Positions 1,672 to 19,548 of a stretch of 31,597 nucleotides of DNA are shown piece after piece; within the stretch, counting starts at the first letter, position 1, and each line of letters starts with the position of its first letter. The notes under the pieces were generated by a model. That model did not search any database. It had not been told where the DNA came from and was given only the letters and a program-made list of their open reading frames with translations. The stretch lies in the IMG/VR virus record IMGVR_UViG_3300001450_000136, positions 1-31,597 of that record, one strand, 5' to 3'. The translations under genes were made by a program, and so were the position numbers. This DNA comes from a virus.

Positions 1672-4600
1672 TCATTGACCTATCATGCTTTTGGTTACTA
1701 AGTCCATGCTTTCTATTTCTGATTTTATGACTCCCGGCAATTCAGACATAATAACTGATTTGATTGATTGCGTAATTTGGCCAGCACCATTAACATTAAC
1801 TTGAACGCTAGGTATACTGACAGAAATGCTTCCCTGCACACTGCCTAATGCACTAGTTAAGCTATCCATCGAACGCGTTATGCCAGAAGAATCAATGCTT
1901 AACGACTTCTTTAATTCACTTGATAGAGTATTGAAACTTTTTTCTATTTTTGACGCTGCGCTAGTTAGCTTCTCGAAATTTACAGTTTCTATATCTGCTG
2001 ATCTAGCGATTTTTTCAGATCCATCCTTGAATAAACCCGCAGAATTTTGCAAAGCTTGAGATTGCGCAGAAAACATAGAAGCTCCATCAAATAATATTTT
2101 AGTTGACTTGCTAAATTCATCGAATCTCAAATCTGAAATTGCACTAGCAAAAACAGAAGTCGTTTCAGAAAATTTATCAGCAATACTTTTAAATTCAGAA
2201 AAGTCTAGTGAGCTACCCCCTTTTGGAATGAATCCATCTGCCGCCGCTTTTTTATATGGGTCAAAATTAAATTTCTTTTGTACTTGTTTTTGATATTGAG
2301 GCGCGGCTTTAGAATTTGATGGAGGTGCGATAAAGGGTTGAGACATTCCAGCCGCCTTAAACACAGACTCTTGGGTATTATAACTGGTTTTTCCAATACC
2401 CGATATATTCATAGTCTTGACTTGAGAAGGCTTTACTGGATTTTTATAACCCGCCATTTTAGAAGCTGCTATTTCCCCAGCTATTGCCGAAAAATTAGGG
2501 ACGAATCCTTTGGCTTTACCGGCTGCATTGGCGTCAGCAAAATTAACTTTATTTTCCATAATCAAATCCCATAAAGTTTGCATTGATGGGCTTCCACTGT
2601 AGTAAGGAGAATTTCTTTTATAAGTACCTAAGCTGTCATAACCGAATGGAGCGTAAGACGAAAGGATTTCATTCCCTGTATTCGCATTTGAAATATTTTT
2701 TACTCTATCATTAATGTGTTTACTAGCTTGCTCGGCTCTGTTCTGCCAATCTTTTGATTTAAGTTTTGGTATAGGGTTAGTTGTGTTATTTACAAGATCG
2801 TCTATACTTTGATTAGCTCCGTAAGTTAAATCAGGGCCAAAAAGATGAGATAGCATTTTTTTCTCAGTGTTTAACTCTGCGTCACCTAGTAATTCGACAA
2901 AAGGATTTAACCCATCTCTGTTAAGCTTTAGTTTATCTTCAACATTTTTTGACCACTCTATTGGGCCATAGTTTTCATTTTTAAAAAAGTCAGTCCTTGG
3001 AACGCCTGAATGATAAAAGCTTTTCCATTTGTCGAAATTTCCTACATTCCCTTTATTTAAAAGCGCTGACTTTAGATTAGTATCAGGGTTGAATCCTTGA
3101 CCTAGGCCCATTAGATACTTCAAATACACAGGACTTTTCATCAACTCTGCATGGCTTGTTCCAGCAAGAATTTCAGTCAAATGTTGAAATGGGTTCCCTT
3201 GTATATTTTCAGCTTCCTCTTTATTCTTATGGAGCCAGTCTTGTATTTGAATTTTATTCATGAAAGATAGGGCTCCTTCAATATCGCTGCCTTCCAACGC
3301 ATTCACGTCAAAGCTTTTCATCCCTTCTAATGTTTGCTTGCCTGATATTTTAACTTGTTCTTTGCTTAATTGATCACCAACTCCTTGAGAGCTGTGAAAG
3401 GGTACCCCAAGATTCTTTACTGCATTAATAAAATGATCTTCTCCTAGCCCAAATCCTTTATTAATTGTTTCGTCAACTAAGAATCCAAAAGCGGGATTAC
3501 CTTGGCCAACTCTCATTAAGTTTTCTTCCAATACCGTCCTTAAATCGTCAGGTATATGATTATGTAAATCATGTTCGTCTCGAGCCCCAAGGCTTCTCAT
3601 AAGACTCATTCTAGAATCGATATCTAGATCCGTAAAGAATTTTTCGAATTGCCCGCCAGTTTTCACGCCTTTATTGCCCTTTTGGTTTCTCATTCTTGCG
3701 AAATTCATTACATTAGGGCCGTCACTAAGCATGACGCCTTTTAGCTCTTCGCCACCCTCTTTAATTTCTTTCATTCTATTCTCGGCGTCTGTTGGTCCAT
3801 TAAGTCGTAAGGCTTCTCTCAACTCTTGAAATTTTTTCGCATAATCTGGAACGGATTCATACATAGGAGGCCCGAGCCTTCTTTGATCGCCCCCTACTTT
3901 AGAAAATTGCCCACCTTGAGTAAAATACAAATAAGCCATGCCTTCTTCATTTCCGGGCTCGTATAAACTTCTCCTTGATTGCAATGCTCCAATTTCACTT
4001 TCTATCTGTGATAGATTAGCTTGTACAGTAGTGTTCGGATTGTCCCGTATTGATTTAGCTCTTCTTTGCCTTTGGAATATCATTTTATCCAATTGATCCT
4101 GCATAAAAGGCATTTTATCACTAATTCTCATCATCCTTGATAATGCATTAACAGAAGCGTCACTTCCTCTAATTTTTTCGGTTTCCTTATTAAGAAGTTT
4201 TAGATACAGTTGGTCACGAATATTTGTTTCTCGAGTTTGGTTAGCGGTCTCTTCTTCTTTAAGCCTGTCTAATATTACTTGAGGGTCCATTCCCAGTTCA
4301 GCAAGAGCGTCTTTTTCTCCTTGTACTACTGGATCAAAAGCATCTGCTCCCGGTAATTTAGGGCCTTGAATATCATCTTTATCTTTTGGATTTGCATTAA
4401 CACCAGCAAGCCCTTTGTCTTTAATTACTTGAGCCCTGCTTTTTTGTCGTCTGTTTTTTTCAATCGCCTCCTTAGATCCTTCAACATCAGTATTCATAAG
4501 AGCAACGAATGCTTGAGTAAGGCCGCTAGAAACAGACTGAGGTTTTACCAATGACATTTTTGAAATAAAACTGTCAAAATCAGTAGAGAGAAAACTGTTC

Positions 4601-7600
4601 AAAGCGCTTTTGCTATTAGTAATAGCGCCGTTCTCAAAAGTATCGTCGATAAATTTTGTAGCGTCTGCGGTAGGTTCATTTCTATTTCCAGCGTGAACTC
4701 TATGATCTAAAAGGTTATTATATGCTAGATACATTTTTCCACCTTGTCCAGTTGAGTCCCTCATGTCTGGAGTTGCGACGGAAAATAGATCAGCACCTTG
4801 AACAAAAGGATTAGGAAAAGTTAATAATCTTCCATCTAGCTGGCCAGTATTAATATTTCCCCTTTGATTGACTATCATGTTTTTTCTTGATTCTTTAGAT
4901 AGCTTAAATTGCGTCATGTATTTTCTTGCCAATGATCCAGCCGCAACGTGCTGTTGCTTCTCCCGCTTGTACTGCTGGATCTTTATTTCATCTTCGTCAG
5001 CTTTCTCTTTAGAGTATACTATTTGACCTTTTTCATTAGCTGATTTTCCTTTTACAGATTGCAATGCCTTAATTGACTCATCCTTCCATAAAATAGAGTC
5101 CTCAATCTTTTTTTCTATTGCTTCTAGTTCGCCAAGATTCCATGGAGTGGATTTTTCTCCTACCTTCCAGCCAGTTTTTCCACTCGCTGTAAATTCGCCA
5201 TCTTTAAAATCAAAAGGTATATTATAAGATTCATTCGTGCTTAAATCATCTATAACTTTTTTATATACATTTATACCATTGAAATAATCGCCTACTCCAG
5301 AAAGTCCCGTTGATGCACTCAAAGCCGCTTCAAATCCAGATCCTGTCCCAAATTTAGCAGTTATCATAGCGTGTTGAGCAATCTGCTTTTGAGAATCTGA
5401 TATTTTCAATTTAGAACTCCTGAGCGTTGAAGAGCCTATAGAAAATAAGTCCATATCTAACTCTCCCCGCCCTGCAGCTTGTTGGAGTAATCCGGGTTGA
5501 GTAGATCCACCCATTTTATGAAACAATGGATAAGCTATATTGCCGTAAGATTTTTTAAGAGTTTCACCAAGAAGTTCGGGCGCACCATTTTTAATCAATG
5601 ATTTTGCAGGCTCTCCAAAAGAAGTTTTACTGGCGAAGTAACCATTATTAAATAAAGCATTATATGCCCCTCTAAGTTTTTCAGGATCTTCAAATGTGTC
5701 AGAAAGTATTCCCCCTATTCCCGCTCCTGCATAAGCCATTGTACTGAGCGTTCCCGCAAGCGCTGCAGTTGGCGTTGCAATTGGAGCTAAAGGTGTCGGA
5801 ATTAGCGCAGCCGCCGCAAGAGAGGTTCCTCCCAAAACGTCGCCCGTAGTTTCCAAAGGCCCTGTAACATTTTCTGCAAGCCCCTCATAATTTTCTTTAG
5901 ACCATTCAGCAAACCCACTCTTGTCTGAAAATAATAAATTAGAAAACTTATTTTGTAAAATTTTTGGAACGTGTGAAGAAATCTTATTTATACGGCTAGT
6001 ATAATCTTTATAATTTAAGGGATCGATAGCGTTTTCTCTTATTTTTGTTGCTCTATCAAAAACTTCCGATTTTTTGTAAAGGTCTCCGAGTCTTTGTTTG
6101 TCAACAAAAGGAGGCACGTCCGCTCTGTCTAGCCATAGATTTTTATCTATACTACCTCCGAAGTAAGCGTTTTTGACTATTCCTTCTTTGTCGGCCAAAG
6201 AAATACTATCCGTAAAACTTTCATCTTCAGTTTTGGCAAAATTCGGAATGAATCCCCCTGCCAGTGGAGCAAATTTGTTACCACCTTTTTCTTTCTGTAA
6301 GTTACGCACACCAATGGATGCCATATGAGACATTCTTTCGGTTAGCAATTTAGCAACGCTAATATTGTAATTATCTGTGAACGTCCCACGAAGTGATTCG
6401 TACCCCAGTTGGTCCGAGCCTTCTTTCTTTTTAAAAACGCTCTGAATATCCTTCATAAACTTATGTAAGGGCTTAACGTCAACATCTTTCCCGAGTGTCT
6501 TTAAAGTTTCTTGGGGATTCTTTAAGAACTTTGAATTTCCTTTTTCATCAAACCAATATCCCCTGAATTCAGGATCATTCAGGAACATATCTAGCTCTAG
6601 ACCTAAAAGATCCGGGCCTATTTGCAGGTCACGAGGATCTCCTGTTTTTCTAAATTTAGGCCAAGCAGTGGGGGCCGTATCTACAAGATAGCCCGTCCTT
6701 AGCCTATCTACCCCGCTCCCCACGCTCTTTGAAATCTCACCTAAACCCATAGCTTTCTTATGGGTCAGCCCGACTTTCTTCCAGAACATTGACTGCATCT
6801 CCATTATGTGTGGAGCGTAATATCTTAAATCGTTTGCCAACCACGCTTCGGCAGGGGTACCCATCTTCATCATATCATCAAGTCCGGGTAGATTTTTGAT
6901 ATCTTTTATATCGAATCTTTTTAAAACTTCTTCTTGTGAAAACTTTTTTCCTTCTAGGAAATCCTGATAAGCGCCAGCTTTCTTGTTGATACCTATATCG
7001 TCAAAAGACTTCGCATACCTAGCCTCTCCAAATCCAACACCGCCTAATGCTTTGTCCTGTTTTTGCATTGTATTTGCTAGCCACTGTTGGTACTCTTTGC
7101 TTCCAAAACCGCCTAATTGCTTTTTATACTTATTTTGTATCCAATGTATTGATTCATTAGCAAGCGTGGATTGAATCTCTGAAAGAGCTTTGTTTGGCAT
7201 TCCTTTGGTTGGAAATTCACTCATCCAGAGTTTTTCAGTTGTAGGATCAAAGGCTCCAAGGTTTCCTTCTCCATTGAGAACTTCGTAGTCGGGAGGAGTA
7301 TCAAGCGATAGGGTGACACCAGACTTGAGAGGATCTTCTTTACCTAAGCCTGTTTGCCTATAAATTTCTTTTTTGATAAGGTTCCATCCCGGAACTTTGC
7401 TAGCTTGCATCGTTGTCTTACCTCCTTCAGCTATATACTCTTCAATCCTTTGCAGCTTGTCACTTTTTCCCATGGCTTGGGAATAGATCTCCGCTAGAGA
7501 GGCTGAGCTTAGATCCCCTTCGGGCTCTGCGAAATTAGGAACAAGGCCTCTAGCAGCAGCCCCTTGTATTTTGGCGGAATTTGAAACTGCCTTATTCATT

Positions 7601-10600
7601 CCTTCAGGATGATCTCTTCTTACAGCAGAAAAGTTGGGTTGAGTAGCGGCGTCCCTTACATACGCTCCAACACTTGGATGGCTATCGATTACAGGTTTTT
7701 TAGCCCCCATACTTCTTTCTGTATTTAATGCCCTTGAAACTGGGCTTACGGGAGCAAAATTAGGAATAAATCCGGAAGCATTATTCCCTGTGATTTTTGC
7801 AGCGGCTTTTTCTAATAATATAGCTGACTTTTCTAAATTCGAAGAAGAATCCTTTAATCCTGAACCCTTAATTTCAGAAACTACCGAAGTTAAAAGCCTA
7901 GAGGTTTCTTCTTTTATTTTTTTATTAGCCTCTTGATTTTGTAAATTAACAGTTGATTGATTGCTTATTTCTTGAGCAATAACGCCTAATTCTCCTAGCG
8001 GCTCGTTCAATTTACTTACAATTATAGGGTTAACCTTTAGTGCCTCAACTAATGGACCAGACAATATTAATTTCAACTCATCGCTAAAAGTTTTAATAGA
8101 TTCTTGAGAAATTACCGTAGTAGCCGCTTTGGAAACATCTCCTTGGGTTTTTACTCCAGCATCTGCCTCCAAGGATTTTGCTTTGTCAATCGCAGAGGTC
8201 AATGCAACCACTAAAGCCCTCGTTTTTTCATCAAGCTGATTAAAAGAATCCGACCTAATAAAATCAGTGACTTGACCATCAAGCTCATCTAAAGAACTTG
8301 CATTAAACTCAACCCCAGCTCCAGAAGCTAAGCTTGAGAATGCTTGATTAAGGTTGGATAATTGACTTTGTTGCCTATTTGATTCTTGTAACTCAGCTAA
8401 AATATCTTTATTTCCGCCAAGTGATTGAATCGTTGATATAACTTTATTAAGTTCACTTATTTGAGCTAAAGAAGATTGTTGGCCTCTAGAAAAGGTTTGG
8501 AGTGATTTTAATTGACCTTCGCTTAATTGAGTATTTCTCTGGAATGCTACCGCTTGATTTCTTTCTTCAGCTAATTGCGCGTTCATAACGGCTCTTGTCT
8601 TAGCTTGTTCGGTCAATAATTTCGTGTTAGCGCTTTGTAGTTCACTGCGAGCCTCTGCCGCAGCTTTTTTCTGTTCTTCGGTTCCTGTTTTTTCTATTTC
8701 TATTAGCGCTTGAATAGCTGAGTCATTTGTTTGAGAACCATCGGCGATACCTTCTATTAAGGTTTTTATTCCTCCATCTAGAGCTTGACCGTTTTCTTTT
8801 GAGTTTCTCAATATTGTTGATGAGAATTTCCCTAAAGCTTTTTCTGATTCTTTAGCTGCGTCTTGAACAGCTTTTTCAATTTTTGCATCTGCTGTTCCTT
8901 TTATTATATTAGTGGAAGTTACTGTCCCTGCGGATTTTAATGTATCAACTCTTGATTTTGATTTTATCTCTTCGATTTCAGATAAGCTTTTATAAGAGGC
9001 ATCTATCGCCGCTGATGAAGACTCTATAGCTGTTGCTAGCTTATTGAAATCTTTTTCTAAATTTTTAATAGGAAGCCTAGTTTTATTAATAGCTTCCGCT
9101 AAAGCCGCTGAAGCAGTATTGTATCTAGCTTGAGCCGCTGCTGATTCTAATAATTTTTTGGCATATTCTCCATTCCCCTTTAATAAGACTAAAGTGGTAG
9201 CGTCTAACTCTCCAAATATATGTTGTAAGGATGCAATTTTATCTGCAGAATTTTCTGATGTCGCATCAAAACCCTTGAGCTCTTCTGCTAATTGTTTTAC
9301 TTTTTCAGGGCTTAAATTTTTAATCAATTGAGAAGAAGTGCCTTTTATATCTGATTCGGTCACTCCAGCTTTATCAAAATCTACTTTACCGGTTTCGGAA
9401 TCAATATTTTCTGCAAGTTTTTTAAATGTTTCAGCAACTGTGACACCAAACCCTTTAAGGTTTTTTCCTTGCTCTATCAAGTCTTTTAATTCTTGAGTTG
9501 CCTTTTTGAGGCCTTCTGCGTCTCCAGCGCTATCAAGTAAATTTTGAAATGCAGTAGCGTCAATGCCTTCCATATCTCCAGCTTGCGAAATTAATTGCTC
9601 CAAGAACTTACCATAGGCTTCAATATTTCCAGAGTCTGTAGATTTTGACAAATTAGCTAGCGTCGCTGCAAATTTATCTACTTTTTCTATATTTTGAGTA
9701 ATAACATTAAGTTGTTTCTCAGAAGCCTCAATGTATTTATCCCCAACTTTTATTAATTTTCTTATACCCGGGTCTATAGTTCCAAATAACCGCCCTAACC
9801 CTTCACCTATCAAATCTGTAATACTTGTGAATTCTTCAGGGATTATCCCCATCGTCTTTAGTATTGGAACGAAAGCTAATTCAGCAGCAATGAGCAAACC
9901 AAATATTTTTTTGAATCCGGAACTAAGGCCTCCCATGATTGTAGAAAACTTGCTTCCTTTTCCAAGAAAGCCGCCTACGGAGCCTTTCATCGATTTGAAA
10001 AGAGGGCCTATCTTACCTAATAAAGTCAATAAACCTTTTCCTCCTGCTACTACACCCCCAACCGCGAAGTTTGGAACATATCCGTTAGCAGTTGATTCTA
10101 TAGATCCTTTATTTTTTGGGTTTATTCCTGTAGAGAGAGCTCGGTCAACACCTTGAGAACCGCTCAATGGTTCGTCTCTAGTATTAGCGACTAATAAACC
10201 CATTGGGTTTTTGGAGCCCTTTAGTCTATTATCTTTATCTACATAAATTTTTGCATTTGATCTTTGTGATGATAGAGCTTCTCTTTCCCTAACTATCGCT
10301 TCTTCTAATGCGTCAGCAAAGTTCGGTATATATCCGCCAGCAAAACCATCCCTAAACATGGGTAGGTCTTGAAGATAATACTCTCGCCCCACTTTATCAT
10401 AAGGTCCCGGAACACCCATAGCCTTAAAAGTTTTTGTCAATGCTTTTGTTTCTCCCGGGACATACTTACTCGAAAGCTTACCTTTTTTTACTCCTGTGCG
10501 CTGGCTTGGGCTGAATTTTCGACCCATTTTTTTTGCTTTCTCTTGCTCTGAATTATAATGTTTTTTATTACTCCCTAGTCGTCCCAATAACCAAGCTGGA

Positions 10601-13600
10601 TCAAAGCGGCCCTCTATTCGCATTTTTGGTTGCGCGAGGCCTTTCGATCTAGCTTTTTCAATCAATTTCTTTCCCGAAACTATCATCTTAGGAATACGTG
10701 GTCCAACTATCTCTCCAGCAACAATTTTTTCATAAGGATTTCCATCTTGAGCTTTACTAATTACGTCCTTAAATAATGTAGAGATAGCACCAGCCCCTCC
10801 CTTAGGGAAGAATGTCTGAAGGTCTAAGGTGGTACCATGCCTACCGTAACTATTTTTTTCAAAATGCTTCATTGCGGAAAGCCCTTCGGCAAAGTTGGGA
10901 GTAAAACCTTCAGCCGCGTTACCATAAGGCTCTCTTATGAATTTTTTTAAGAAGCTCGTTTGATTGGTTGAGCTATCTAAAGTAGTTTTGTAATCTCCAA
11001 AATTAGAAGAACTAATATTTAAAACTTCTTTTTCCTTTTCGGTAAGAGAGTAAAAATCCCAGTTATTATTATCTAGTTGTGATAAATATCCTGATTCTTT
11101 ATTTACTGCTTTTTGCGCGGAAGTTATTAATTCTTCAAATATTCTGCCCGTAACCCTTCCTTTGTTTTGCTTGTCAGCAGCAGGGTTAAGAGATTTTCTA
11201 TTATACTCTTTTATTCTAGCTGTGTAATACTTTTTGTTGCCTTTAAGTATTGACTGAAAATGCGCTCTCCAGTCTTCATCTATAGAAGCGTTTGTGTTTG
11301 GAAAGATCTCTTCGCCTATCCCAAGCAAAGAACTCATTGAAATTTTACTTTTTCCTTTAATTCCTTTTTTAACTGACTTGTCTATCCTACCCCTTAACTC
11401 TTGATAGTCTATGTTGGATTTAGACATTTCTGGAGACCCCATAGAAACAGAATCAAATCCATACCAACTTCTTCCAAAATTCTCTACTAGTTTTTTTGGT
11501 ATTTTCGATTTTTCTTTTTCTGAGGACATTAAACTGTTTATCTGCTTTTGCCATTGACTTGGCTTAGATCCTCTAGTATAAATATAAGCGCTTTTATCGC
11601 CTTGAACTTTAAAGTTTTCAGCTCTATTAGCTAAAGAGTTTTCATTGATATTTTTGTAATTATTTTTGGACCAGTCAGACCGCCTATGAACAAAATTATT
11701 TGATATAAAATCTCTCCAGTTATCATCTCTCAGTTTTTTATTTATAAATGAAGCTAGCTCGCTTTCCTTAACACTCTTCTTGAATAAATTTTGGTTTTCG
11801 GGTTTTAGCTTTCCGAATTTTTTAATATCCTGAGGTTTGTAATTGGGGCCTGTAAATTGATCGACTGCTCTATCAGGCACAGAGTTTATAAAATTAGGAA
11901 TATACCCACCGGCTTTTGATTTAACATCATTTTTTGCTAAAATAGCTTTTTGCACTAAAGGAGCATATTGCTGTGTATGTATACCCTCTAACCTTTCTTT
12001 AAAAAACGAGGTGCCGTAAGCTTTTTTGATAACTTTTGTTTCTTCAGAAGCACTTCCTACTCTTTTTGCGTCAGCTTTTAATATATTAGGATATCCAGAA
12101 GAAGTAAAAAACATATCTTTTAAATCTCTAGATATGCTTGAGGACTCCTCAAAATCCCAAGTCGCTTGGCTGCTATTCGTGCCAAAAGTCTTCGCAGAGG
12201 CTTTTGATCCAAGTCTTATAGCAGCCTCAAATATACTTCCTTCTGCTCCGGTATCTACAATTTTACTTTTATCAGCCTCTTTCCATACAGAAGATACTAG
12301 ATCGTTAGCTTTAATTTCATCCCCAAATAACCTACCATAAATTTTAGCTGAAATATTTGCTGTTGCATTTGCGATACTGTTCCCTATAATATCATTAAAA
12401 ACTCCTTTTTGCCCTGAAAAATCATTAGCGTTAGCTTCATTTAATTTAGAAAATGTCGATCCCCCAATATTTTCAAAAGATACGCCTAGTGCCCCACCGC
12501 CAAGCTTGCTAATTTTTCTTAAAACCAATCCTTGTTCTTGAGCGTTTAACCTAGAGCCCGCTATTGATTGAATAATTTTCTTTCCTTGTTCAGGGCCTAA
12601 ATAATTAGAACCAAAAGGATTTAATTTTCCAGCTTTATTAAAAGGCCCAGAATTACCTTTTAATGAGATCATGCCAAATCCACCTAGCTGCTTATCCACA
12701 TCCACTGATAAACTTGGGTAATTAGTGGTTGCGTTTTTCCAAATGCTTGATTTTTCAATATTTGACCCTTTGGTCGCTAAGCCAGACTTACCTTTTGCAA
12801 AGTTAGGAATGAACCCTCCAGAAACAGGGATCGCTCCTTGTGGAACGCCTCCTGCTTTTTTCACCATCTCTTTATTAAAAATCGCAGATCCGCTTCCTCC
12901 ACCAAACCTAGGGACTATATATTCATCAGTATTTGCGACAATAGTTTCTTTTCTCCCTCCTCCCATTGGAAAGTTCGGAAGAACTTTTGGCCTCGCCGAA
13001 CTTGAAGCCCCTCCTTCGCCAGCTAAAATAGCTTGCCTTTCTGCGCTCATTGCACCAGAAACACCATTAGCAAAATTAGGCACGTACCCATCTGCTTTAT
13101 TTCTCGCACCGCCACTGGTATTATTGACAGCAGCTCCAACTCTTCTAGATTTTGCGAGCCTACTAACCATTGCTTGTTGGGCGGCGTAAGCAGCATTTTG
13201 TTGCCTAATGGTGTCTAGTACTAATTCTTCTTTTTGTTCGTGACTTAAAGTTTCTCTCGAAATAGCTTCATATAGGGTTTTGTTGTTTTTTAATAAGAAT
13301 CCTATTTTGGCTTCTGCTTCTGCTATCTTTTGCTTCGCGCTACCAATTTTAAAAACTTCCTTTAAAGCTTTTGCGGATTGAAAAGTGATAAACTTAAAAA
13401 GTTTTATAAAAGCTACTCCAATTATAATAAGACCGGGACCAGCAATAAAATTACCAATAGCCCCAAAAAAGTTCTTAATTAATGAATTTCCTTTTTCTGG
13501 ATCCAATGCGCTGTTTAAAGCTCCAGCTATAGAATTAAAAATCTTTAACAAATTTTCTACTGCAGGAGTCGCTACTAAATCTCCAAGGACAGAAGCCAGC

Positions 13601-14724
13601 TCCTTAGCGTTAACCGCGGCTTCATTAATCAAAGCGGATAAGGTGCTTTGCAGCTTTTCGTTCCGTTTAACAGCTTCGTCCGTTGCACCGTTTGATTGAT
13701 TCAGAGCTCTTTCATAAATACTATAATCACTTCCCAAATCTTTGACCAAAGCTTTTAAATTATTTATCTGAAATACCCCAGCGACCAACTCATCTGTATA
13801 AGCTCTTTGGGAGTCGCTTAAGGTTTTATATACCCCTGCGTAATCTTTAAGTATGTCTAGTGCGTTTCTTATGTTTCCTGCTGAATCGGTGGTTGCTACA
13901 CCAATATCCTCTAGAGCTTCTCTTACTCCCGATCTTTGGATTCTAGTAAATATACTTTTAAATGCATTTCCTATTACCGAACCTCCTCTAGCCGTTGTTT
14001 GTTGAACACTTGTGACCGCAGCCAATAACTGATCCAAGCTCACTTTTGCTGATTGGGCGGTCGAACCAGCTCTCGCAAGCGCGTTTGATAAATCTTCAGT
14101 ACTTACAGCAAAAGCGGCATCTACGGTAGCTAGTTTATTTACAAGATCAGTCGTTGTTAAAGCGGCGTCTCCAAAACCATTTACTGCAGCAGTTAATGTT
14201 TCTACTGATTTGGCGGCATCCATTCCAGATAACCGAGTCAATATCATCGCATCATTAATTCTACTTATAGTCTCTTCTGCCCCCAACCCTTGACGAGATA
14301 ACTCAACAGCTGCTTCTGATACCACTTGAAAACTTTGTCCAGTATTTCTTGCTGTATTAAAAAGATCTTCTGAAAATTTATTTAAAGCGCCTGAGTTAAG
14401 GTTTAAAATGACATTAATATCCGTAAGTGCTTTCTCAACCTCGACTGCGCTAGTAACCATGGCTTTAAATCCTTGAGTAACTGCGTTGAGGACTCCGACG
14501 GCAGCACCAAATGCTAAAGTACGAGCTACAGATGCATCAAGAGACTTCTGAAACTCTCCCATATCTCCAGAAATTCTACCTAATGGCTGCCTAAATCCTT
14601 TATCGTCAAGACTTACCGATATAGGCCTTATTTTTCTTTCAGCCGAACGTACTTGGCGTACTATATCGGACTCTAGTCCGCGTGCGCCAACATCTATTTG
14701 AATATTTCCACTACCTAATGCCAT
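1672..14724 (-). CDS. Giant modular tape measure protein (4350 aa) with motif-delimited inserted domains
   Basis: The start is well supported: ATG at 14722-14724 with AAGGA six bases upstream. Residues about 95-290 look like the TP901-type tape measure core (PF10145/TIGR01760-like), for example ARNTGQSFQ at 125-133. Hydrophobic stretches near residues 425-445, 1590-1615 and 2960-3000 could be the membrane-inserting parts tape measures carry. Residues 1552-2320 and the last 180 are long helical, Gln/Ser/Lys-rich tape measure-like sequence. The rest is split by the motif [AS]xG[FYL][IVT]PNF, with its Pro at residues 549, 640, 943, 1276, 1467, 1551, 2321, 2396, 2827 and 4076, and a degenerate copy at 4167. 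Between motifs lie two nuclease-like domains, a zincin-like domain, short modules and a 1249-residue unknown. It lies downstream of tube and chaperone-like genes, the usual tape measure place. Tape measure identity is firm; domain functions are inferred. Confidence 0.9.
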   Translation of the reverse strand: MALGSGNIQIDVGARGLESDIVRQVRSAERKIRPISVSLDDKGFRQPLGRISGDMGEFQKSLDASVARTLAFGAAVGVLNAVTQGFKAMVTSAVEVEKALTDINVILNLNSGALNKFSEDLFNTARNTGQSFQVVSEAAVELSRQGLGAEETISRINDAMILTRLSGMDAAKSVETLTAAVNGFGDAALTTTDLVNKLATVDAAFAVSTEDLSNALARAGSTAQSAKVSLDQLLAAVTSVQQTTARGGSVIGNAFKSIFTRIQRSGVREALEDIGVATTDSAGNIRNALDILKDYAGVYKTLSDSQRAYTDELVAGVFQINNLKALVKDLGSDYSIYERALNQSNGATDEAVKRNEKLQSTLSALINEAAVNAKELASVLGDLVATPAVENLLKIFNSIAGALNSALDPEKGNSLIKNFFGAIGNFIAGPGLIIIGVAFIKLFKFITFQSAKALKEVFKIGSAKQKIAEAEAKIGFLLKNNKTLYEAISRETLSHEQKEELVLDTIRQQNAAYAAQQAMVSRLAKSRRVGAAVNNTSGGARNKADGYVPNFANGVSGAMSAERQAILAGEGGASSSARPKVLPNFPMGGGRKETIVANTDEYIVPRFGGGSGSAIFNKEMVKKAGGVPQGAIPVSGGFIPNFAKGKSGLATKGSNIEKSSIWKNATTNYPSLSVDVDKQLGGFGMISLKGNSGPFNKAGKLNPFGSNYLGPEQGKKIIQSIAGSRLNAQEQGLVLRKISKLGGGALGVSFENIGGSTFSKLNEANANDFSGQKGVFNDIIGNSIANATANISAKIYGRLFGDEIKANDLVSSVWKEADKSKIVDTGAEGSIFEAAIRLGSKASAKTFGTNSSQATWDFEESSSISRDLKDMFFTSSGYPNILKADAKRVGSASEETKVIKKAYGTSFFKERLEGIHTQQYAPLVQKAILAKNDVKSKAGGYIPNFINSVPDRAVDQFTGPNYKPQDIKKFGKLKPENQNLFKKSVKESELASFINKKLRDDNWRDFISNNFVHRRSDWSKNNYKNINENSLANRAENFKVQGDKSAYIYTRGSKPSQWQKQINSLMSSEKEKSKIPKKLVENFGRSWYGFDSVSMGSPEMSKSNIDYQELRGRIDKSVKKGIKGKSKISMSSLLGIGEEIFPNTNASIDEDWRAHFQSILKGNKKYYTARIKEYNRKSLNPAADKQNKGRVTGRIFEELITSAQKAVNKESGYLSQLDNNNWDFYSLTEKEKEVLNISSSNFGDYKTTLDSSTNQTSFLKKFIREPYGNAAEGFTPNFAEGLSAMKHFEKNSYGRHGTTLDLQTFFPKGGAGAISTLFKDVISKAQDGNPYEKIVAGEIVGPRIPKMIVSGKKLIEKARSKGLAQPKMRIEGRFDPAWLLGRLGSNKKHYNSEQEKAKKMGRKFSPSQRTGVKKGKLSSKYVPGETKALTKTFKAMGVPGPYDKVGREYYLQDLPMFRDGFAGGYIPNFADALEEAIVREREALSSQRSNAKIYVDKDNRLKGSKNPMGLLVANTRDEPLSGSQGVDRALSTGINPKNKGSIESTANGYVPNFAVGGVVAGGKGLLTLLGKIGPLFKSMKGSVGGFLGKGSKFSTIMGGLSSGFKKIFGLLIAAELAFVPILKTMGIIPEEFTSITDLIGEGLGRLFGTIDPGIRKLIKVGDKYIEASEKQLNVITQNIEKVDKFAATLANLSKSTDSGNIEAYGKFLEQLISQAGDMEGIDATAFQNLLDSAGDAEGLKKATQELKDLIEQGKNLKGFGVTVAETFKKLAENIDSETGKVDFDKAGVTESDIKGTSSQLIKNLSPEKVKQLAEELKGFDATSENSADKIASLQHIFGELDATTLVLLKGNGEYAKKLLESAAAQARYNTASAALAEAINKTRLPIKNLEKDFNKLATAIESSSAAIDASYKSLSEIEEIKSKSRVDTLKSAGTVTSTNIIKGTADAKIEKAVQDAAKESEKALGKFSSTILRNSKENGQALDGGIKTLIEGIADGSQTNDSAIQALIEIEKTGTEEQKKAAAEARSELQSANTKLLTEQAKTRAVMNAQLAEERNQAVAFQRNTQLSEGQLKSLQTFSRGQQSSLAQISELNKVISTIQSLGGNKDILAELQESNRQQSQLSNLNQAFSSLASGAGVEFNASSLDELDGQVTDFIRSDSFNQLDEKTRALVVALTSAIDKAKSLEADAGVKTQGDVSKAATTVISQESIKTFSDELKLILSGPLVEALKVNPIIVSKLNEPLGELGVIAQEISNQSTVNLQNQEANKKIKEETSRLLTSVVSEIKGSGLKDSSSNLEKSAILLEKAAAKITGNNASGFIPNFAPVSPVSRALNTERSMGAKKPVIDSHPSVGAYVRDAATQPNFSAVRRDHPEGMNKAVSNSAKIQGAAARGLVPNFAEPEGDLSSASLAEIYSQAMGKSDKLQRIEEYIAEGGKTTMQASKVPGWNLIKKEIYRQTGLGKEDPLKSGVTLSLDTPPDYEVLNGEGNLGAFDPTTEKLWMSEFPTKGMPNKALSEIQSTLANESIHWIQNKYKKQLGGFGSKEYQQWLANTMQKQDKALGGVGFGEARYAKSFDDIGINKKAGAYQDFLEGKKFSQEEVLKRFDIKDIKNLPGLDDMMKMGTPAEAWLANDLRYYAPHIMEMQSMFWKKVGLTHKKAMGLGEISKSVGSGVDRLRTGYLVDTAPTAWPKFRKTGDPRDLQIGPDLLGLELDMFLNDPEFRGYWFDEKGNSKFLKNPQETLKTLGKDVDVKPLHKFMKDIQSVFKKKEGSDQLGYESLRGTFTDNYNISVAKLLTERMSHMASIGVRNLQKEKGGNKFAPLAGGFIPNFAKTEDESFTDSISLADKEGIVKNAYFGGSIDKNLWLDRADVPPFVDKQRLGDLYKKSEVFDRATKIRENAIDPLNYKDYTSRINKISSHVPKILQNKFSNLLFSDKSGFAEWSKENYEGLAENVTGPLETTGDVLGGTSLAAAALIPTPLAPIATPTAALAGTLSTMAYAGAGIGGILSDTFEDPEKLRGAYNALFNNGYFASKTSFGEPAKSLIKNGAPELLGETLKKSYGNIAYPLFHKMGGSTQPGLLQQAAGRGELDMDLFSIGSSTLRSSKLKISDSQKQIAQHAMITAKFGTGSGFEAALSASTGLSGVGDYFNGINVYKKVIDDLSTNESYNIPFDFKDGEFTASGKTGWKVGEKSTPWNLGELEAIEKKIEDSILWKDESIKALQSVKGKSANEKGQIVYSKEKADEDEIKIQQYKREKQQHVAAGSLARKYMTQFKLSKESRKNMIVNQRGNINTGQLDGRLLTFPNPFVQGADLFSVATPDMRDSTGQGGKMYLAYNNLLDHRVHAGNRNEPTADATKFIDDTFENGAITNSKSALNSFLSTDFDSFISKMSLVKPQSVSSGLTQAFVALMNTDVEGSKEAIEKNRRQKSRAQVIKDKGLAGVNANPKDKDDIQGPKLPGADAFDPVVQGEKDALAELGMDPQVILDRLKEEETANQTRETNIRDQLYLKLLNKETEKIRGSDASVNALSRMMRISDKMPFMQDQLDKMIFQRQRRAKSIRDNPNTTVQANLSQIESEIGALQSRRSLYEPGNEEGMAYLYFTQGGQFSKVGGDQRRLGPPMYESVPDYAKKFQELREALRLNGPTDAENRMKEIKEGGEELKGVMLSDGPNVMNFARMRNQKGNKGVKTGGQFEKFFTDLDIDSRMSLMRSLGARDEHDLHNHIPDDLRTVLEENLMRVGQGNPAFGFLVDETINKGFGLGEDHFINAVKNLGVPFHSSQGVGDQLSKEQVKISGKQTLEGMKSFDVNALEGSDIEGALSFMNKIQIQDWLHKNKEEAENIQGNPFQHLTEILAGTSHAELMKSPVYLKYLMGLGQGFNPDTNLKSALLNKGNVGNFDKWKSFYHSGVPRTDFFKNENYGPIEWSKNVEDKLKLNRDGLNPFVELLGDAELNTEKKMLSHLFGPDLTYGANQSIDDLVNNTTNPIPKLKSKDWQNRAEQASKHINDRVKNISNANTGNEILSSYAPFGYDSLGTYKRNSPYYSGSPSMQTLWDLIMENKVNFADANAAGKAKGFVPNFSAIAGEIAASKMAGYKNPVKPSQVKTMNISGIGKTSYNTQESVFKAAGMSQPFIAPPSNSKAAPQYQKQVQKKFNFDPYKKAAADGFIPKGGSSLDFSEFKSIADKFSETTSVFASAISDLRFDEFSKSTKILFDGASMFSAQSQALQNSAGLFKDGSEKIARSADIETVNFEKLTSAASKIEKSFNTLSSELKKSLSIDSSGITRSMDSLTSALGSVQGSISVSIPSVQVNVNGAGQITQSIKSVIMSELPGVIKSEIESMDLVTKSMIGQ
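6247..7536 (-). other. Zincin-like domain within the tape measure, with degenerate NExxH motif
   Basis: This is the inter-motif segment of residues 2397-2826. At residues 2521-2528 it reads LANESIHW, the context of a zinc metallopeptidase helix (usually xxHExxHxxQ), followed by an amphipathic stretch. The first zinc-binding His is replaced by Asn2523, while the Glu (2524) and the second His (2527) remain. The Asn codon is AAT, one base from CAT. An upstream patch, AFDPTTEKLWMSE, resembles the edge strand that precedes zincin active-site helices. The third ligand is not obvious. The fold assignment is an inference from motif context, and as written the site would bind zinc poorly. Confidence 0.45.
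10327..10896 (-). other. Unrecognised basic domain within the tape measure
   Basis: This is the inter-motif segment of residues 1277-1466, about 190 residues, strongly basic and rich in Lys, Arg and Gly. It contains patches such as EIVGPRIPKMIVSGKKLIE and MRIEGRFDPAWLLGRLG. It contains no hydrophobic membrane segment and no repeat. The compact size and flanking PNF motifs suggest an independently folded module. I do not recognise its family; nucleic-acid binding would fit the charge but is not shown. Confidence 0.4.
10900..11895 (-). other. PD-(D/E)XK nuclease-like domain B within the tape measure
   Basis: This is the inter-motif segment of residues 944-1275. Its C-terminal part carries the ordered residues typical of restriction-like nucleases: GRIFEELI with Glu1197, NNWDF with Asp1223, then FGDYKTT with Asp1244-x-Lys1246. 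Spacings are 26 and 21 residues. The N-terminal two thirds (about 944-1160) is a basic, Trp/Asn/Lys-rich region of unknown role. The same E, WDF and DxK order recurs in the neighbouring segment, which strengthens the reading. Activity is not demonstrated, and a short three-residue signature alone can mislead. Confidence 0.5.
11899..12804 (-). other. PD-(D/E)XK nuclease-like domain A within the tape measure
   Basis: This is the inter-motif segment of residues 641-942. It contains GSIFEAAI with Glu833, ATWDFEE with Asp857, and KADAKRV with Asp885-x-Lys887, spaced by 24 and 28 residues. This matches the Glu...Asp...(D/E)xK order of PD-(D/E)XK nucleases and the arrangement of the next domain. Before it lies a Gly/Asn/Ser-rich part (about 641-800) with patches such as GGFGMISLKGNSGPF. 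The overall similarity of the two domains outside the signature is low, so they are not a recent duplication. The nuclease call is an inference. Confidence 0.45.
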
Positions 14725-14755: not shown

Positions 14756-15748
14756 TTAAGAAAAATTTTGAAAATCTTCTATGGTCAAAGAGCCTTTCTT
14801 TTTTGCCAACTCAAACGGACTAATATCCATTTCATTAGAAACTCCCATCTCCCCCATGTCTTTTTTAGTTGCTCCTACTACGCTAAAACCTTGCTTGTCT
14901 TTGCTTTTTTCTTGAATGTTTTTTGTTCTTTTTTGGGAATCTGCAAAATCAAGCAAGTCATCAGGGTTTCCCTTGATAGCTTCAGGGATGTTTTCTACAT
15001 TCTCTAATATAGAGTTTAATACCTTTGTATAATTTAATAAATTCAATTGGTAATAAGAATACAAATAAATACTCCTATCAAAAAACTTGTATAGACTCTT
15101 TGATCCAAGTATATTATAATATATAGAAAATATACTGCTTATTGATAAATACTTTATATTGTCTATCGATAAATGTTGTGTACTTTCTACATATGTTAAA
15201 AACATATTTTGCAAGCTTGTTTTTGGGATTTCCCCAAACTCTTCTTCAGTAAAGAATTTTTCGCTTAAACTTTCGTTTTTAAAAAAACTTAGATAAAGAC
15301 TAAAGTCATTATTCTTATTTTTTGCATAGCTTTCGCATGTTGAGGTTACTAAAGACTCTTTTTTTTGCTTAAGATTTTGTAATTTTTTCTGAGCTTCTTC
15401 GATGTCTTTATTAATCTGCTCTATCTGACTGGGTATAATAAGATTTTTCTTAGTATCCCGCAGGCTGTTTAAGTACTTTTGTGTTTCGTCTATTTCGTCT
15501 TCTTCTTTTTCCGACCACACTTCTTGCTCTATTAGAAGATTTAAAGTCTCTTCTTCCGTTGGTAAGCCTTTCTCTCTTGCTTTGTCAAAAGTTAAACGAT
15601 AATGATTTTCTAATATAAACTGATCTTCATTACCAAAGTGTTTGATAAATACTTTATCACTACCAACTTCACTAAGAGTATAGCCCTTTACGACTTCTGA
15701 CAAAACTTTTCTTAACGTTTCATCTTCTGGCGCTCCTTTTTTATCCAT
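14756..15748 (-). CDS. Probable tail assembly factor upstream of the tape measure (330 aa)
   Basis: The ATG at 15746-15748 has AAGG five bases upstream and lies 16 bases after the preceding stop; the stop is 31 bases before the tape measure start. The protein is hydrophilic and charged, with a strong heptad-like coiled-coil segment around residues 80-145 (IEQINKDIEEAQKKLQNLKQ). A Tyr/Leu/Ile-rich helical middle follows at about 185-250, and then a Lys/Asp-rich tail. There is no signal peptide. Genes in this slot, between tail tube and tape measure, usually encode tail assembly chaperones that hold the tape measure before tube polymerisation. I recognise no sequence family, so the role is inferred from position. 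It is in a different frame from the upstream gene, and an intervening stop rules out a simple frameshift fusion of the two. Confidence 0.6.
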   Translation of the reverse strand: MDKKGAPEDETLRKVLSEVVKGYTLSEVGSDKVFIKHFGNEDQFILENHYRLTFDKAREKGLPTEEETLNLLIEQEVWSEKEEDEIDETQKYLNSLRDTKKNLIIPSQIEQINKDIEEAQKKLQNLKQKKESLVTSTCESYAKNKNNDFSLYLSFFKNESLSEKFFTEEEFGEIPKTSLQNMFLTYVESTQHLSIDNIKYLSISSIFSIYYNILGSKSLYKFFDRSIYLYSYYQLNLLNYTKVLNSILENVENIPEAIKGNPDDLLDFADSQKRTKNIQEKSKDKQGFSVVGATKKDMGEMGVSNEMDISPFELAKKKGSLTIEDFQNFS

Positions 15749-15764: not shown

Positions 15765-16694
15765 TTATGAAGGTTTAGGCTTTTCTTTGGACTTTTCCTT
15801 GGACTCTTCCTTGGACTCTTCCTTGGGCTCTTCCTTGGGCTCTTCCTTGGGCTCTTCCTTGGGCTCTTCCTTGGGCTCTTCTTTGATCTCTTGAACGTCA
15901 GACTCCCTGTCCATTTCCTTAAGTACTGATTCGAAATCATCTTGATCCTGAACTCCGCTCATATACCATATAGTAGCGATAGTGCTAAGCTTGTCAATAG
16001 TTTTTACAAAAATGTCTTCTTGATCTTCATCAGCTTCTTGATACGAAAGGTATTTTTCTTCGTAATCACTTCCGGGAAATAAAGGTTCTTCTTCGGCATC
16101 GTCCTTATCACCTCTTACAAAGTAAGATAAGTGAAGAAGGAACCAAGTGATGGTTTTGTTTCTAGCCTTCACGTCAGCAGTGTGATCAAAAATAGACGCT
16201 TGAGCGGCTTCAAAATCTGCGATTTGTTTTCTAATAATAGCTAGATCGGAGATGGCTTTTTCAAGACGCTCTTTTTCGTCATTGCTCATATTGTCTCTAT
16301 CTTTTGCGGTATAACGAATTACATTCTGTTGTTTTTCAAAAAGCTGAAGGTAGAGCTTAGCAAAGTTTGACTTGTCGTCATCATTTAATGTTCCCCCTAC
16401 ATCGACTTGTTTTTTCGCAAGCATAGCTCTTGTCAATAAGCCCATTTTAATAAACTTGTTAAGCCATATGCTGTAAAACATATCTCCGTCTTCTACTTGA
16501 GTTCTGGTTGGCTTTCTGAGAAAAACTTTGACGGGAGTTTTTTCTGTGACTGTTTTCTTTACTGTCTCGTCAACTTTTTCTTTTTTGCCTGTTTCTTTAT
16601 TTTTTCTTTCTACCTCTCTAATAACCTCTTTCTCAATTTCTTCTTCGATTTCGATATCAAAACTATAGAGTTCTCGATTCTTCTTGTCTTTCAT
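15765..16694 (-). CDS. Putative tail assembly chaperone with acidic EEPK repeat tail (309 aa)
   Basis: The ATG at 16692-16694 has a good AAGGA site about seven bases upstream. The protein begins with a charged segment rich in Glu and Lys (residues 1-50). A conserved-looking core follows (TPVKVFLRKPTRTQVEDGD, then MFYSIWLNKFIKMGLLTRAM), and then helical acidic sequence. It ends in a tandem EEPK/EESK tail from about residue 269 to the stop. The core resembles proteins I have seen encoded just before tape measure genes in marine phages, described as tail assembly chaperone-like. That is recognition by style, not by a defined family. A +1 frame through the repeats stays open and would give a basic KSPR tail ending at 15755. 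I see no slippery site, so programmed frameshifting, common in this gene class, is not supported. Confidence 0.6.
   Translation of the reverse strand: MKDKKNRELYSFDIEIEEEIEKEVIREVERKNKETGKKEKVDETVKKTVTEKTPVKVFLRKPTRTQVEDGDMFYSIWLNKFIKMGLLTRAMLAKKQVDVGGTLNDDDKSNFAKLYLQLFEKQQNVIRYTAKDRDNMSNDEKERLEKAISDLAIIRKQIADFEAAQASIFDHTADVKARNKTITWFLLHLSYFVRGDKDDAEEEPLFPGSDYEEKYLSYQEADEDQEDIFVKTIDKLSTIATIWYMSGVQDQDDFESVLKEMDRESDVQEIKEEPKEEPKEEPKEEPKEEPKEESKEESKEKSKEKPKPS
15793..15876 (-). repeat. 12-bp tandem repeat encoding EEPK/EESK units
   Basis: Seven consecutive 12-base units run across this stretch. The plus-strand unit is TCTTCCTTGGGC, with GGAC variants in the first two. Five are identical and degenerate units lie on both sides. 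Each encodes Lys-Glu-Glu-Pro or Lys-Glu-Glu-Ser at the acidic C-terminus of the gene. The near-identity at DNA level indicates recent slippage expansion, and copy number is likely to vary among relatives. Confidence 0.9.
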
Positions 16695-16711: not shown

Positions 16712-16999
16712 TTATTTAATTGTTAATTCGAATTGTTCTAGTTGACCTATTATTTCTCTCAATGTATCATTACCGTTGTCAAGAATTTTTTTCCTTAAGA
16801 AGTCCATTCTTTCTGTATCCCAATAATCTGCCTGATTAATGAGATCTAGGTCCTGAGGGAGAGAAGATTTTAATTTCCTGAAAGATCCTTCATGCTGGTC
16901 ATGCATGTCTTCCATCATAATTAAAAATGATTTATATAAATTTATAACGTTTCTATTGATTTGAAACTCCAATAATTCCTTAAGTTTGCCTTGATCCAT
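16712..16999 (-). CDS. Small conserved-looking phage protein of unknown function (95 aa)
   Basis: The ATG at 16997-16999 lacks a clear Shine-Dalgarno sequence; the stop is 17 bases before the next gene. The protein is predicted helical and mildly acidic. It begins with an amphipathic helix (MDQGKLKELLEFQINRNV) and ends with DYWDTERMDFLRKKILDNG, whose aromatic and charged pattern suggests a conserved interaction surface. It has no membrane segment, signal peptide, cysteines or known motif. Position between tail-tube-like genes and the putative assembly chaperone points to a tail assembly or minor tail role. I do not recognise the family. Confidence 0.6.
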   Translation of the reverse strand: MDQGKLKELLEFQINRNVINLYKSFLIMMEDMHDQHEGSFRKLKSSLPQDLDLINQADYWDTERMDFLRKKILDNGNDTLREIIGQLEQFELTIK

Positions 17000-17033: not shown

Positions 17034-17819
17034 TTACAAGTATTGAATAATTTTCGCTGTATTAGTTTCGTCTTGTTCGGAAGATACGCTAGAAGATCTA
17101 GAGCTTAAATATCCATTAATATTTAATGAACCTAAGTCTTGCCCACCGCACCCAAGCATAGAAATGCTGTAATCTTGAGGAGGGGTTACGCAAGATTGCC
17201 CTACAGTGTTTGTTAGTCTGTTAGGGAATCCCTCTCCATTAACATCTACTTGAATCTCTCCTTGGCTAAAAACAATCACAGGAGTAGTATTTCCCAACAA
17301 ATAATGAGCACTGTAACTTTGATTAAAACTCCAAGTTATTGATGATATAGGGTCCATTGATCCGACATTACTAAAACCGCTTAGACTTATATTTTCTGCA
17401 ATTACCGGATTTAATTCTGGAGATATTGGCTCAGGAGGGCTCTGTTCAGCAACCCCTCCGAAGTACTCAAACTGTCTTTGCACAACAACAGGTTCACCTA
17501 TATTGATATTTATAGACATGCTCGATAACACGCATGGTGCTGGACAGTAATAAGGCCCAAGATGAACAGTTATATTCTGATCGTTACTCCCTTTTAATTG
17601 ATTGAATATATTTAAATCATTTATTAAATAAGAATCAATGCTTAAACTTCCTTGTGGTGCTTTTTTATTAAATACAGAGCTAGACCCTTTAATTCCTAAA
17701 GATAAAGAATGTTCTAATTCTATACCTTCGTCTAAGCTTGCTGAGTTGCCGTATATATTATCAACAGATAAATCCGAGTAAGTAACAGCCGCTGGAAAAC
17801 TTTTATAACAATTACTCAT
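17034..17819 (-). CDS. Tail-tube-like structural protein, copy 4 (261 aa)
   Basis: The ATG at 17817-17819 overlaps the end of the previous gene by eight bases. The protein is almost entirely beta-type, Ser/Asn/Ile-rich, with several cysteines. It aligns by eye with its upstream neighbour: APQGSLSIDSYLIND matches HPEGSIDIDFYVTTGD, LGPYYCPAPCVLSSMSINI matches AGPFIIKNALLNSFSING, SFNQSYSAHYLLG matches SFSQNFDVKYSLA, and NINGYLSSRS matches SISGILNSRS. That ordering shows common descent. Both share the broad architecture of phage tail tube proteins. The role is inferred as a specialised tube or tube-terminating ring protein; low GC suggests lower expression than the major tube gene. Pilot or baseplate components are alternatives. 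Confidence 0.65.
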   Translation of the reverse strand: MSNCYKSFPAAVTYSDLSVDNIYGNSASLDEGIELEHSLSLGIKGSSSVFNKKAPQGSLSIDSYLINDLNIFNQLKGSNDQNITVHLGPYYCPAPCVLSSMSININIGEPVVVQRQFEYFGGVAEQSPPEPISPELNPVIAENISLSGFSNVGSMDPISSITWSFNQSYSAHYLLGNTTPVIVFSQGEIQVDVNGEGFPNRLTNTVGQSCVTPPQDYSISMLGCGGQDLGSLNINGYLSSRSSSVSSEQDETNTAKIIQYL

Positions 17820-18624
17820 CGCAGCCTGTGTTTTTTACATATTTTTCAGAAATGTTAATTCTTTCTATAACTTCTGATCCGGGGGAAGAGGATAAACTTC
17901 TACTATTCAGTATGCCGCTTATAGATAAATCAGCAACATGTTCTTGACATAAATTATATAATCCAATTTCTGATGCTCTTTTTGAAAATCCAGATTCAGA
18001 GATGCAAAGCCCAGAGGCCCCAGTTAAATTTGTTTTCTCAAAATCCACATCGGAAAGTACGCTTTCTATGTCTAATGTTTTTGACCCTCCAGCATAACTA
18101 ACTCTACTTATTCCAGAACTAGCCAAAGAATACTTAACATCAAAGTTTTGACTGAAAGAATAGTCAAAAGATATCATTTTACTCACCCCTAAATCTTCCA
18201 TTCTCCCGCTCGACGAAGCTCCATGAGCTGGTATTATAGTCGCTCCGCTTTTCGAAGGTGAAGAGCCAGATTCCATTTGCCCGTAATATGAATAACTAAT
18301 AGAGCCTCTTATAATATCCGAAGGGCTTCCGTTTATAGAAAATGAATTTAAAAGAGCGTTTTTTATTATGAAAGGCCCTGCTCGGACTTCCGTAAACCCA
18401 GTGCTTCCATACCCGCTCTCAATCATATCAATCTCATCTCCAGTAGTTACATAAAAATCTATATCTATACTTCCCTCTGGGTGCCCTCTTGCTATTGTAT
18501 TGTAATTTTTAGTCCCTAAGGCAGCGAAACTGTCAACGTCTATACTTTCTGAAATATTTATTGATTCGGCATAATAGCTTTGACTACCAATAGAAGCTTT
18601 CATATTCTTAAAAGAAACGCTCAT
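17812..18624 (-). CDS. Tail-tube-like structural protein, copy 3 (270 aa)
   Basis: The start overlaps the upstream stop in an ATGA arrangement (18621-18624), a sign of translational coupling. The protein is Ser/Gly/Ile-rich and beta-type. It starts with SVSFKNMKASIGSQSYYAES, and a GHPEGSIDIDFYV strand pair near residue 50 looks like the beta-hairpin region of tail tube proteins. Its C-terminus (VADLSISGILNSRSLSSSPG) resembles the equivalent part of the next gene. It lacks signal or membrane sequences. The likely role is a minor tail tube or tail ring subunit. The paralogy with 17034-17819 is visible; relation to the two genes upstream is weaker and rests on shared design. Confidence 0.65.
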   Translation of the reverse strand: MSVSFKNMKASIGSQSYYAESINISESIDVDSFAALGTKNYNTIARGHPEGSIDIDFYVTTGDEIDMIESGYGSTGFTEVRAGPFIIKNALLNSFSINGSPSDIIRGSISYSYYGQMESGSSPSKSGATIIPAHGASSSGRMEDLGVSKMISFDYSFSQNFDVKYSLASSGISRVSYAGGSKTLDIESVLSDVDFEKTNLTGASGLCISESGFSKRASEIGLYNLCQEHVADLSISGILNSRSLSSSPGSEVIERINISEKYVKNTGCDE

Positions 18625-19478: not shown

Positions 19479-19496
19479 ACCTATCGAATATTACAC

Positions 19497-19527
19497 AAAA
19501 AAGCCCCTGAGTAGAACTCAGAGGCTT
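19497..19527 (-). terminator. Intrinsic terminator after the major tail tube gene
   Basis: On the minus strand the RNA would form an 11-pair stem, AAGCC-U-CUGAG with CUCAG-G-GGCUU (one U-G pair), closed by a UUCUA loop and followed directly by a run of six U's. It lies 22 bases beyond the stop of the 370-residue tail gene and just before its AT-rich paralog, so it would reduce expression of the downstream tail genes relative to the tube gene. Confidence 0.9.
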
Positions 19528-19548
19528 TAAAGTTAACGATTATATGTC

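Follow-up and report, generated by a model that had tools for sequence, protein, structure and literature searches.

Organization of the tape measure locus

The window analyzed here was a 31,597-nt stretch of viral DNA, being part of a 32.9-kb IMG/VR record (IMGVR_UViG_3300001450_000136). It carried a 4350-aa ORF which is, as judged from its N-terminal domain and its gene position, a siphophage tape measure protein: (i) the N-terminus contained a PhageMin_Tail domain (PF10145) and was matched by eleven tape measure families in the PHROGs search and (ii) the gene was located between tail tube and tail-tip genes, a position based on an upstream gene of the window with a weak PF18906 tube match and, in relatives, on PF05939 and Phage_tail_L genes found downstream or close by (see below). 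PF05939, Phage_tail_L, and NlpC/P60, namely lambda-like tail-tip genes, were found near the tape measures of relatives, and together with the tube-like gene they point to siphophages. All features are located in Table 1.

Table 1. Features of the tape measure ORF and its upstream genes in the window
Feature	Residues	Position	Strand	Remarks
Tape measure protein ORF		1672..14724	-	4350 aa
N-terminal PhageMin_Tail domain	124-308	13801..14355	-	PF10145, E 3.3e-27
Hydrophobic segment 1	422-440	13405..13461	-
Motif 1, GYVPNFA	from 546	13069..13089	-
Module B	553-636	12817..13068	-	ETIVANTDEYIVPRF..SAIFNKEMV; 10 loci among the matches listed; confident in AlphaFold2 model
Motif 2, GFIPNFA	from 637	12796..12816	-
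Cargo segment	644-939	11908..12795	-	PD-(D/E)XK-like signature GSIFE..WDFE..ADAK
Motif 3, GYIPNFI	from 940	11887..11907	-
Cargo segment	947-1272	10909..11886	-	second PD-(D/E)XK-like signature GRIFEE..NWDFY..GDYK
Motif 4, GFTPNFA	from 1273	10888..10908	-
Cargo segment	1280-1463	10336..10887	-	confident alpha/beta domain
Motif 5, GYIPNFA	from 1464	10315..10335	-
Module A	1471-1547	10084..10314	-	NPMGLLVANTRDEP; family in at least 53 loci
Motif 6, GYVPNFA	from 1548	10063..10083	-
763-aa stretch, probable ruler	1555-2317	7774..10062	-	ruler role probable
Hydrophobic segment 2	1610-1628	9841..9897	-
Motif 7, GFIPNFA	from 2318	7753..7773	-
Module D	2325-2392	7549..7752	-	VRDAATQPNFSAVRRDHPEG
Motif 8, GLVPNFA	from 2393	7528..7548	-
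Cargo segment	2400-2823	6256..7527	-	NESIH at aa 2523 in place of HExxH
Motif 9, GFIPNFA	from 2824	6235..6255	-
1242-aa segment	2831-4072	2509..6234	-	relatives in L002 and L003
Motif 10, GFVPNFS	from 4073	2488..2508	-
Module C	4080-4163	2236..2487	-	GIGKTSYNTQESVFKAAGMSQPFIAPP; module identity by inspection
Degraded motif 11, GFIPKGG	from 4164	2215..2235	-
Conserved gene directly upstream of tape measure		14756..15748	-	at least 54 loci
Conserved gene, candidate tail assembly chaperone		15765..16694	-	at least 46 loci; candidate function from position
Conserved 95-aa gene, candidate tail assembly chaperone		16712..16999	-	at least 38 loci; candidate function from position
Tail tube-like protein		17812..18624	-	weak PF18906 match, E 6e-4, below Pfam cut-off

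The tape measure ORF contained ten G-x-x-P-N-F motifs plus one degraded copy, as the first-pass annotation had counted: eight of the ten ended in PNFA, and the remaining two were GYIPNFI and GFVPNFS. Shuffling of the residues (5000 times) gave a mean of 0.03 and a maximum of 2 copies, versus the ten observed. The seven copies matching G[FYL][IV]PNFA all differed in DNA, on average at 3.2 of 5 wobble positions; a DNA repeat was therefore ruled out as the origin of the motif, and this variation at wobble positions indicates selection on the peptide rather than on the DNA. The degraded copy closed a recognizable module (module C) and is thus taken as a real site. The 763-aa stretch following motif 6 probably acts as the ruler, and the presence of a second motif set (residues 2318 to 4164) beyond this ruler-like stretch made the window unusual.

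Three further observations concern the gene surroundings. The window contained four consecutive tail tube-like proteins (17034-20661, minus strand) that formed two related pairs, which is more tube paralogues than usual. A 764-aa protein (25496-27790, minus strand) in the structural gene block had a PAP2-superfamily domain (PF01569, E 3e-8), which is odd for a region of virion genes. Some relatives carried ribonucleotide reductase, glycosyltransferase, and sulfotransferase genes close to the tape measure.

Distribution of the motif and exchange of cassettes

A DNA-pattern scan of IMG/VR for GG[FY][IV]PNFA recovered at least 118 stretches, and about 113 of the 118 matches listed were located in tape-measure-like ORFs; the same pattern gave 43 matches in 257 Gb of bacterial and archaeal genomes, with only four (L124, L141, L149, and L164) in tape-measure-like ORFs. 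The consensus was A-[AS]-G-G-[FY]-[IV]-P-N-F-A, in which G-G was partly imposed by the search pattern. PNF was found in 361 copies versus seven carrying another residue for N, and the motif flanks were rich in Gly, Ala, Ser, and Lys. Among the matches listed, the tape measure N-domain was present in 64 of the 67 ORFs that had their own start, and the first motif lay at residues 537-564 or 616-645 in 60 of these 64. Motif spacing was irregular (about 50 to 1250 residues), the last motif was followed by a median of 1286 residues (33 complete proteins), and most relatives had no motif in this long C-terminal part.

In isolated phages, tblastn matches covered less than half of a 1008-residue N-terminal query and one-fifth of a whole relative, always at the N-terminus, and the most widespread module gave no match. 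Three isolate phage records, containing four tape-measure ORFs, were inspected and had no PNF. Since isolates matched the N-terminal domain only, and those inspected had no PNF, the motif is a feature of phages mostly not isolated, and on the sequences at hand it is a hallmark of uncultivated siphophage tape measures.

Several matches stood apart from this pattern. Those of L106 and L107, in non-tape-measure ORFs, were attributed to chance. L047, L101, and L113 encoded another giant protein with an HExxH site, each having a single GGFVPNFA near the C-terminus, which may be fortuitous or may mean that the motif is also used elsewhere. L061 and L115 had a related tape measure that kept module B and one PNFA, with AGGMIPAVN and AGGYTPKSA as degenerate boundaries; this tape measure may be an older or a decayed form. 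A general tape-measure element, 'GGxVPG...GE', was considered as the origin of the motif and was unsupported in the three isolate records.

All ORFs were split at the motif, and the resulting segments were compared. The short inter-motif segments were modules recurring in many relatives: module B was found at the first motif pair, module C was an alternative to B and usually occupied that position, and module A or D was usually the last before the long C-terminal part; in the window, module C was located near the C-terminal end. Among the matches listed, 31 segment families were present in at least two loci, 28 of them with more than one neighbour pair, and 85 segments were singletons.

Close relatives were often alike except for one segment. 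Of 119 internal ends of high-identity matches, 81% fell no more than 10 residues from a motif (median 1), compared with 4% of randomly drawn positions and 11% when the draw was confined to the motif region; these 119 ends were not independent, many ORFs being related and pairs being counted in both directions. In L019 and L110, residues 1-625 were 96% identical and the following segment 98%; then came 247 versus 272 residues without detectable similarity and, after these, a 96% identical module. At DNA level, their 96.1% identity stopped at residue 796.3, in the last codon of the motif at 790-796, and the match resumed at 1042.3, two codons before the next motif (starting at 1044). Likewise, the DNA match of L011 and L039 broke at 502.0 (motif 496-502) and resumed at 708.0 (motif at 709). 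Compared to L019, L072 had one additional 130-residue segment plus motif.

These alignments demonstrate that phages exchange whole cassettes and that the junctions coincide with the motif; because similarity stopped at motifs and cassettes were replaced between consecutive motifs, the motif bounds a polymorphic cargo array. The first-pass annotation had offered, as one of several possibilities, that the motif is a boundary allowing domain swaps; the recurrence of cassettes at varied positions and beside varied neighbours and the DNA-level replacements support this, the motifs being located between domains.

Cargo domains and possible membrane topology

An AlphaFold2 model of residues 540 to 1560 had a mean pLDDT of 51 and was confident for module B and for residues 1280-1463. 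The motifs adjoining these two domains fell in low-confidence stretches outside them, so where the model was informative no motif was placed inside a domain. The whole-region model gave no significant match in PDB or BFVD, and the best VIA-align Z of the alpha/beta domain at residues 1280-1463 was 5.3, too low for naming a fold.

The commonest cargo family, present in at least 79 loci and including residues 644-939 and 947-1272 of the window, was characterized by G-x-[IF]-F-E, D, and [DE]-x-K. G, D, and K were invariant in all 81 domains, and D or E was present two residues before K in every one, giving the D...(D/E)xK active-site signature of PD-(D/E)XK nucleases. The AlphaFold2 model of the core (mean pLDDT 79) was mostly helical, and the core had no PDB match for its model and no Pfam family; membership in PD-(D/E)XK is therefore unproven, and these domains are termed nuclease-like rather than nucleases.

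Other recognizable cassettes were found in relatives: (i) GNAT acetyltransferase above the Pfam cut-off in L043, L053, and L056; (ii) an SNase match (2.7e-5); (iii) PHROGs matches to polynucleotide kinase (5.5e-6) and endonuclease (1.3e-5); and (iv) ADP-ribosyltransferase (ART)-like segments of L092, L108, and L074 with invariant LYRG, S, and E-x-E in the alignment, corresponding to the R..S..ExE triad, the S-T-S reading being altered in L074. The ART-like segments had no profile match, the ART-like and P-loop segments had no significant match in a PDB sequence search, an NCBIfam search gave nothing convincing, and most cassettes matched no family. The acetyltransferase call rests on Pfam, and the ART-like, P-loop, and nuclease-like calls on residue signatures; several cassettes look like enzymes acting on nucleic acids, nucleotides, or proteins, not on the cell wall. 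The GNAT-containing cargo segment of L053 also had an intact zincin-like HExxH (aa 381) and is a candidate built-in peptidase.

The initial view of the window as carrying two nuclease-like domains and one zincin-like domain as enzyme cargo was thus kept in part. The two nuclease-like signatures stood, but prediction left their fold unconfirmed; the zincin was unsupported, its site reading NESIH and so lacking the first histidine of HExxH, and no relative of this segment was found in viral contigs. Several cassettes of relatives were enzyme-like, and in the window itself the enzyme-type evidence was limited to the two nuclease-like signatures.

The hydrophobic profile was compared across relatives as well. 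In 61 of 64 proteins, a peak of at least 1.6 was found ahead of the first motif, located at about residues 418-444 in nearly all cases, and the array had a fixed start about 100-230 residues past this segment (residues ~420-440). Peaks of at least 1.6 were rare inside the array (3/56), and a second one was found within 400 residues past the array in 20 of 51 proteins. The tape measure of the window had two peaks only, flanking the first six motifs, and the first part of its array ended just ahead of the second hydrophobic segment. Should these peaks be membrane segments, the array would be a soluble loop exposed at one face of the membrane.

Possible roles of the array and relation to known systems

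We give somewhat better than even weight to a tape measure with a swappable cargo array that is carried in the tail, ejected, and refolded in the host. The middle of the protein carries compact domains, each bounded by A-A/S-G-G-F/Y-I/V-P-N-F-A; the array would ride in the tail tube largely unfolded or extended, leave with the tape measure at infection, and refold in the host, where the cassettes might serve as first-wave host-takeover, counter-defence, or anti-competitor proteins. Tape measure biology makes ejection with the genome most likely. Being selected as a peptide, the motif is probably recognized by a protein and thus bound or cut, a protease freeing the domains being the likeliest partner and a docking partner a less likely one. 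The wider proposal of a general delivery chassis, with an enzyme array in the tail tube cut at PNFA and freed into the cytoplasm of the host, ahead of the DNA or together with it, is tentative and has a less than even chance. Several points count against the favored reading: no candidate processing protease was found beside the gene, and the zincin-like site of the window lacks its first histidine; the fold of the nuclease-like core was unconfirmed, and most cassettes matched no family; the second hydrophobic peak was clear in only a minority of proteins, with a motif set beyond it in the window; and several folded domains of 15-30 kDa would be hard to fit into a tail tube.

In the main rival reading, which we consider unlikely, the motif serves to dock a protein of the tail, be it an assembly chaperone, the tube wall, or the neck, and the bulky cargo region is thereby organized without being cut. 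The three conserved upstream genes (at least 38 to 54 loci) could be the partners, and no processing protease was found beside the tape measure gene in the stretches examined, except one NlpC/P60 match. However, the irregular spacing argues against docking, as does the lack of motifs in most relatives both in the first ~537 residues and in the long C-terminal part, where chaperones or the tube would bind too; given this lack in the C-terminal part, a ruler-wide form of the tube-wall or chaperone role raised in the first-pass annotation is unlikely. Docking is weakened accordingly as a rival, and the window departs in part from the rule of a motif-free C-terminal ruler. A motif acting without any protein partner, as a linker and joint for recombination that connects any two domains safely and offers short homology for exchange, would agree with swap junctions flush with the motif and with its Gly-, Ala-, Ser-, and Lys-rich flanks, but synonymous sites varied freely within one genome, so DNA homology is not what is kept, and a mere linker would not hold P-N-F in unrelated contexts; we regard it as improbable.

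Similarly small weight is given to the view that the cassettes function within the cell that produces the phage or within the virion (assembly, packaging, or tail structure) rather than in the next host. The producing cell makes tape measures late, and ejection is deduced here from tape measure biology; against this, the array follows the hydrophobic segment of a protein class known for ejection into the membrane, and the rapid turnover of cassettes in near-identical phages looks like host conflict, not conserved assembly. Catalytically dead spacers that lengthen the tape measure are the least probable reading: most segments match no family, but the invariant residues of the nuclease-like family are the putative catalytic ones, and the GNATs reach the Pfam cut-off. 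Under the favored cargo reading, swaps at a peptide in over a hundred environmental phages suggest an undescribed set of tail-borne proteins sent into the host.

Polymorphic toxin systems likewise combine a constant carrier with exchangeable effector domains. Their exchange takes place at the C-terminus, with immunity genes, whereas the exchange seen here was internal and multiple, and no immunity gene was identified. Muralytic tape measures (Basilisk-like and SPbeta-like phages, T5 pb2, and phiIPLA35) have the same N-domain family with enzymes fused in the chain (PMC6145125), but those enzymes cut peptidoglycan, whereas the recognizable cassettes here were nuclease-like, acetyltransferase, ART-like, and P-loop, several per protein, motif-bounded, and swapped. 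Polyvalent proteins of phages and conjugative elements likewise contain many enzyme domains (ART, GNAT, nucleases, and zincins) in one giant chain, are thought to enter the host with DNA, and have been proposed to be processed into pieces (Iyer et al. 2017, PMC5512222); the relatives resembled them in having several unrelated enzyme domains per chain (GNAT, ART-like, P-loop, SNase, and nuclease-like). The word 'tape' is absent from the text of that paper; in the present case the tail tape measure serves as carrier, and every domain is delimited by a fixed peptide. In contractile injection systems, the Sle1/Tme effectors have a tape-measure-related carrier in the tube and a diverse variable domain, whose exchange was tested there (PMC13277306); they are bacterial with a single C-terminal functional domain, whereas a phage tape measure with an internal multi-cassette array and a repeated boundary peptide was found here.

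In the open-access literature, nothing relevant was found for PNFA/IPNFA, nor was the combination of a repeated boundary peptide, many cassettes, and non-muralytic enzymes in a phage tape measure. A large survey was unable to establish genuine recent mosaicism of tape measures (PMC10684548); pairs of the L019/L110 type, by contrast, displayed clear cassette exchange inside these proteins. The motif makes it simple to mine phages for many more enzymes and to ask whether a non-contractile tail can carry and release proteins. Besides its usual roles as ruler and membrane channel, the tape measure would likely have a third one, that of a modular carrier for enzymes directed at the host.
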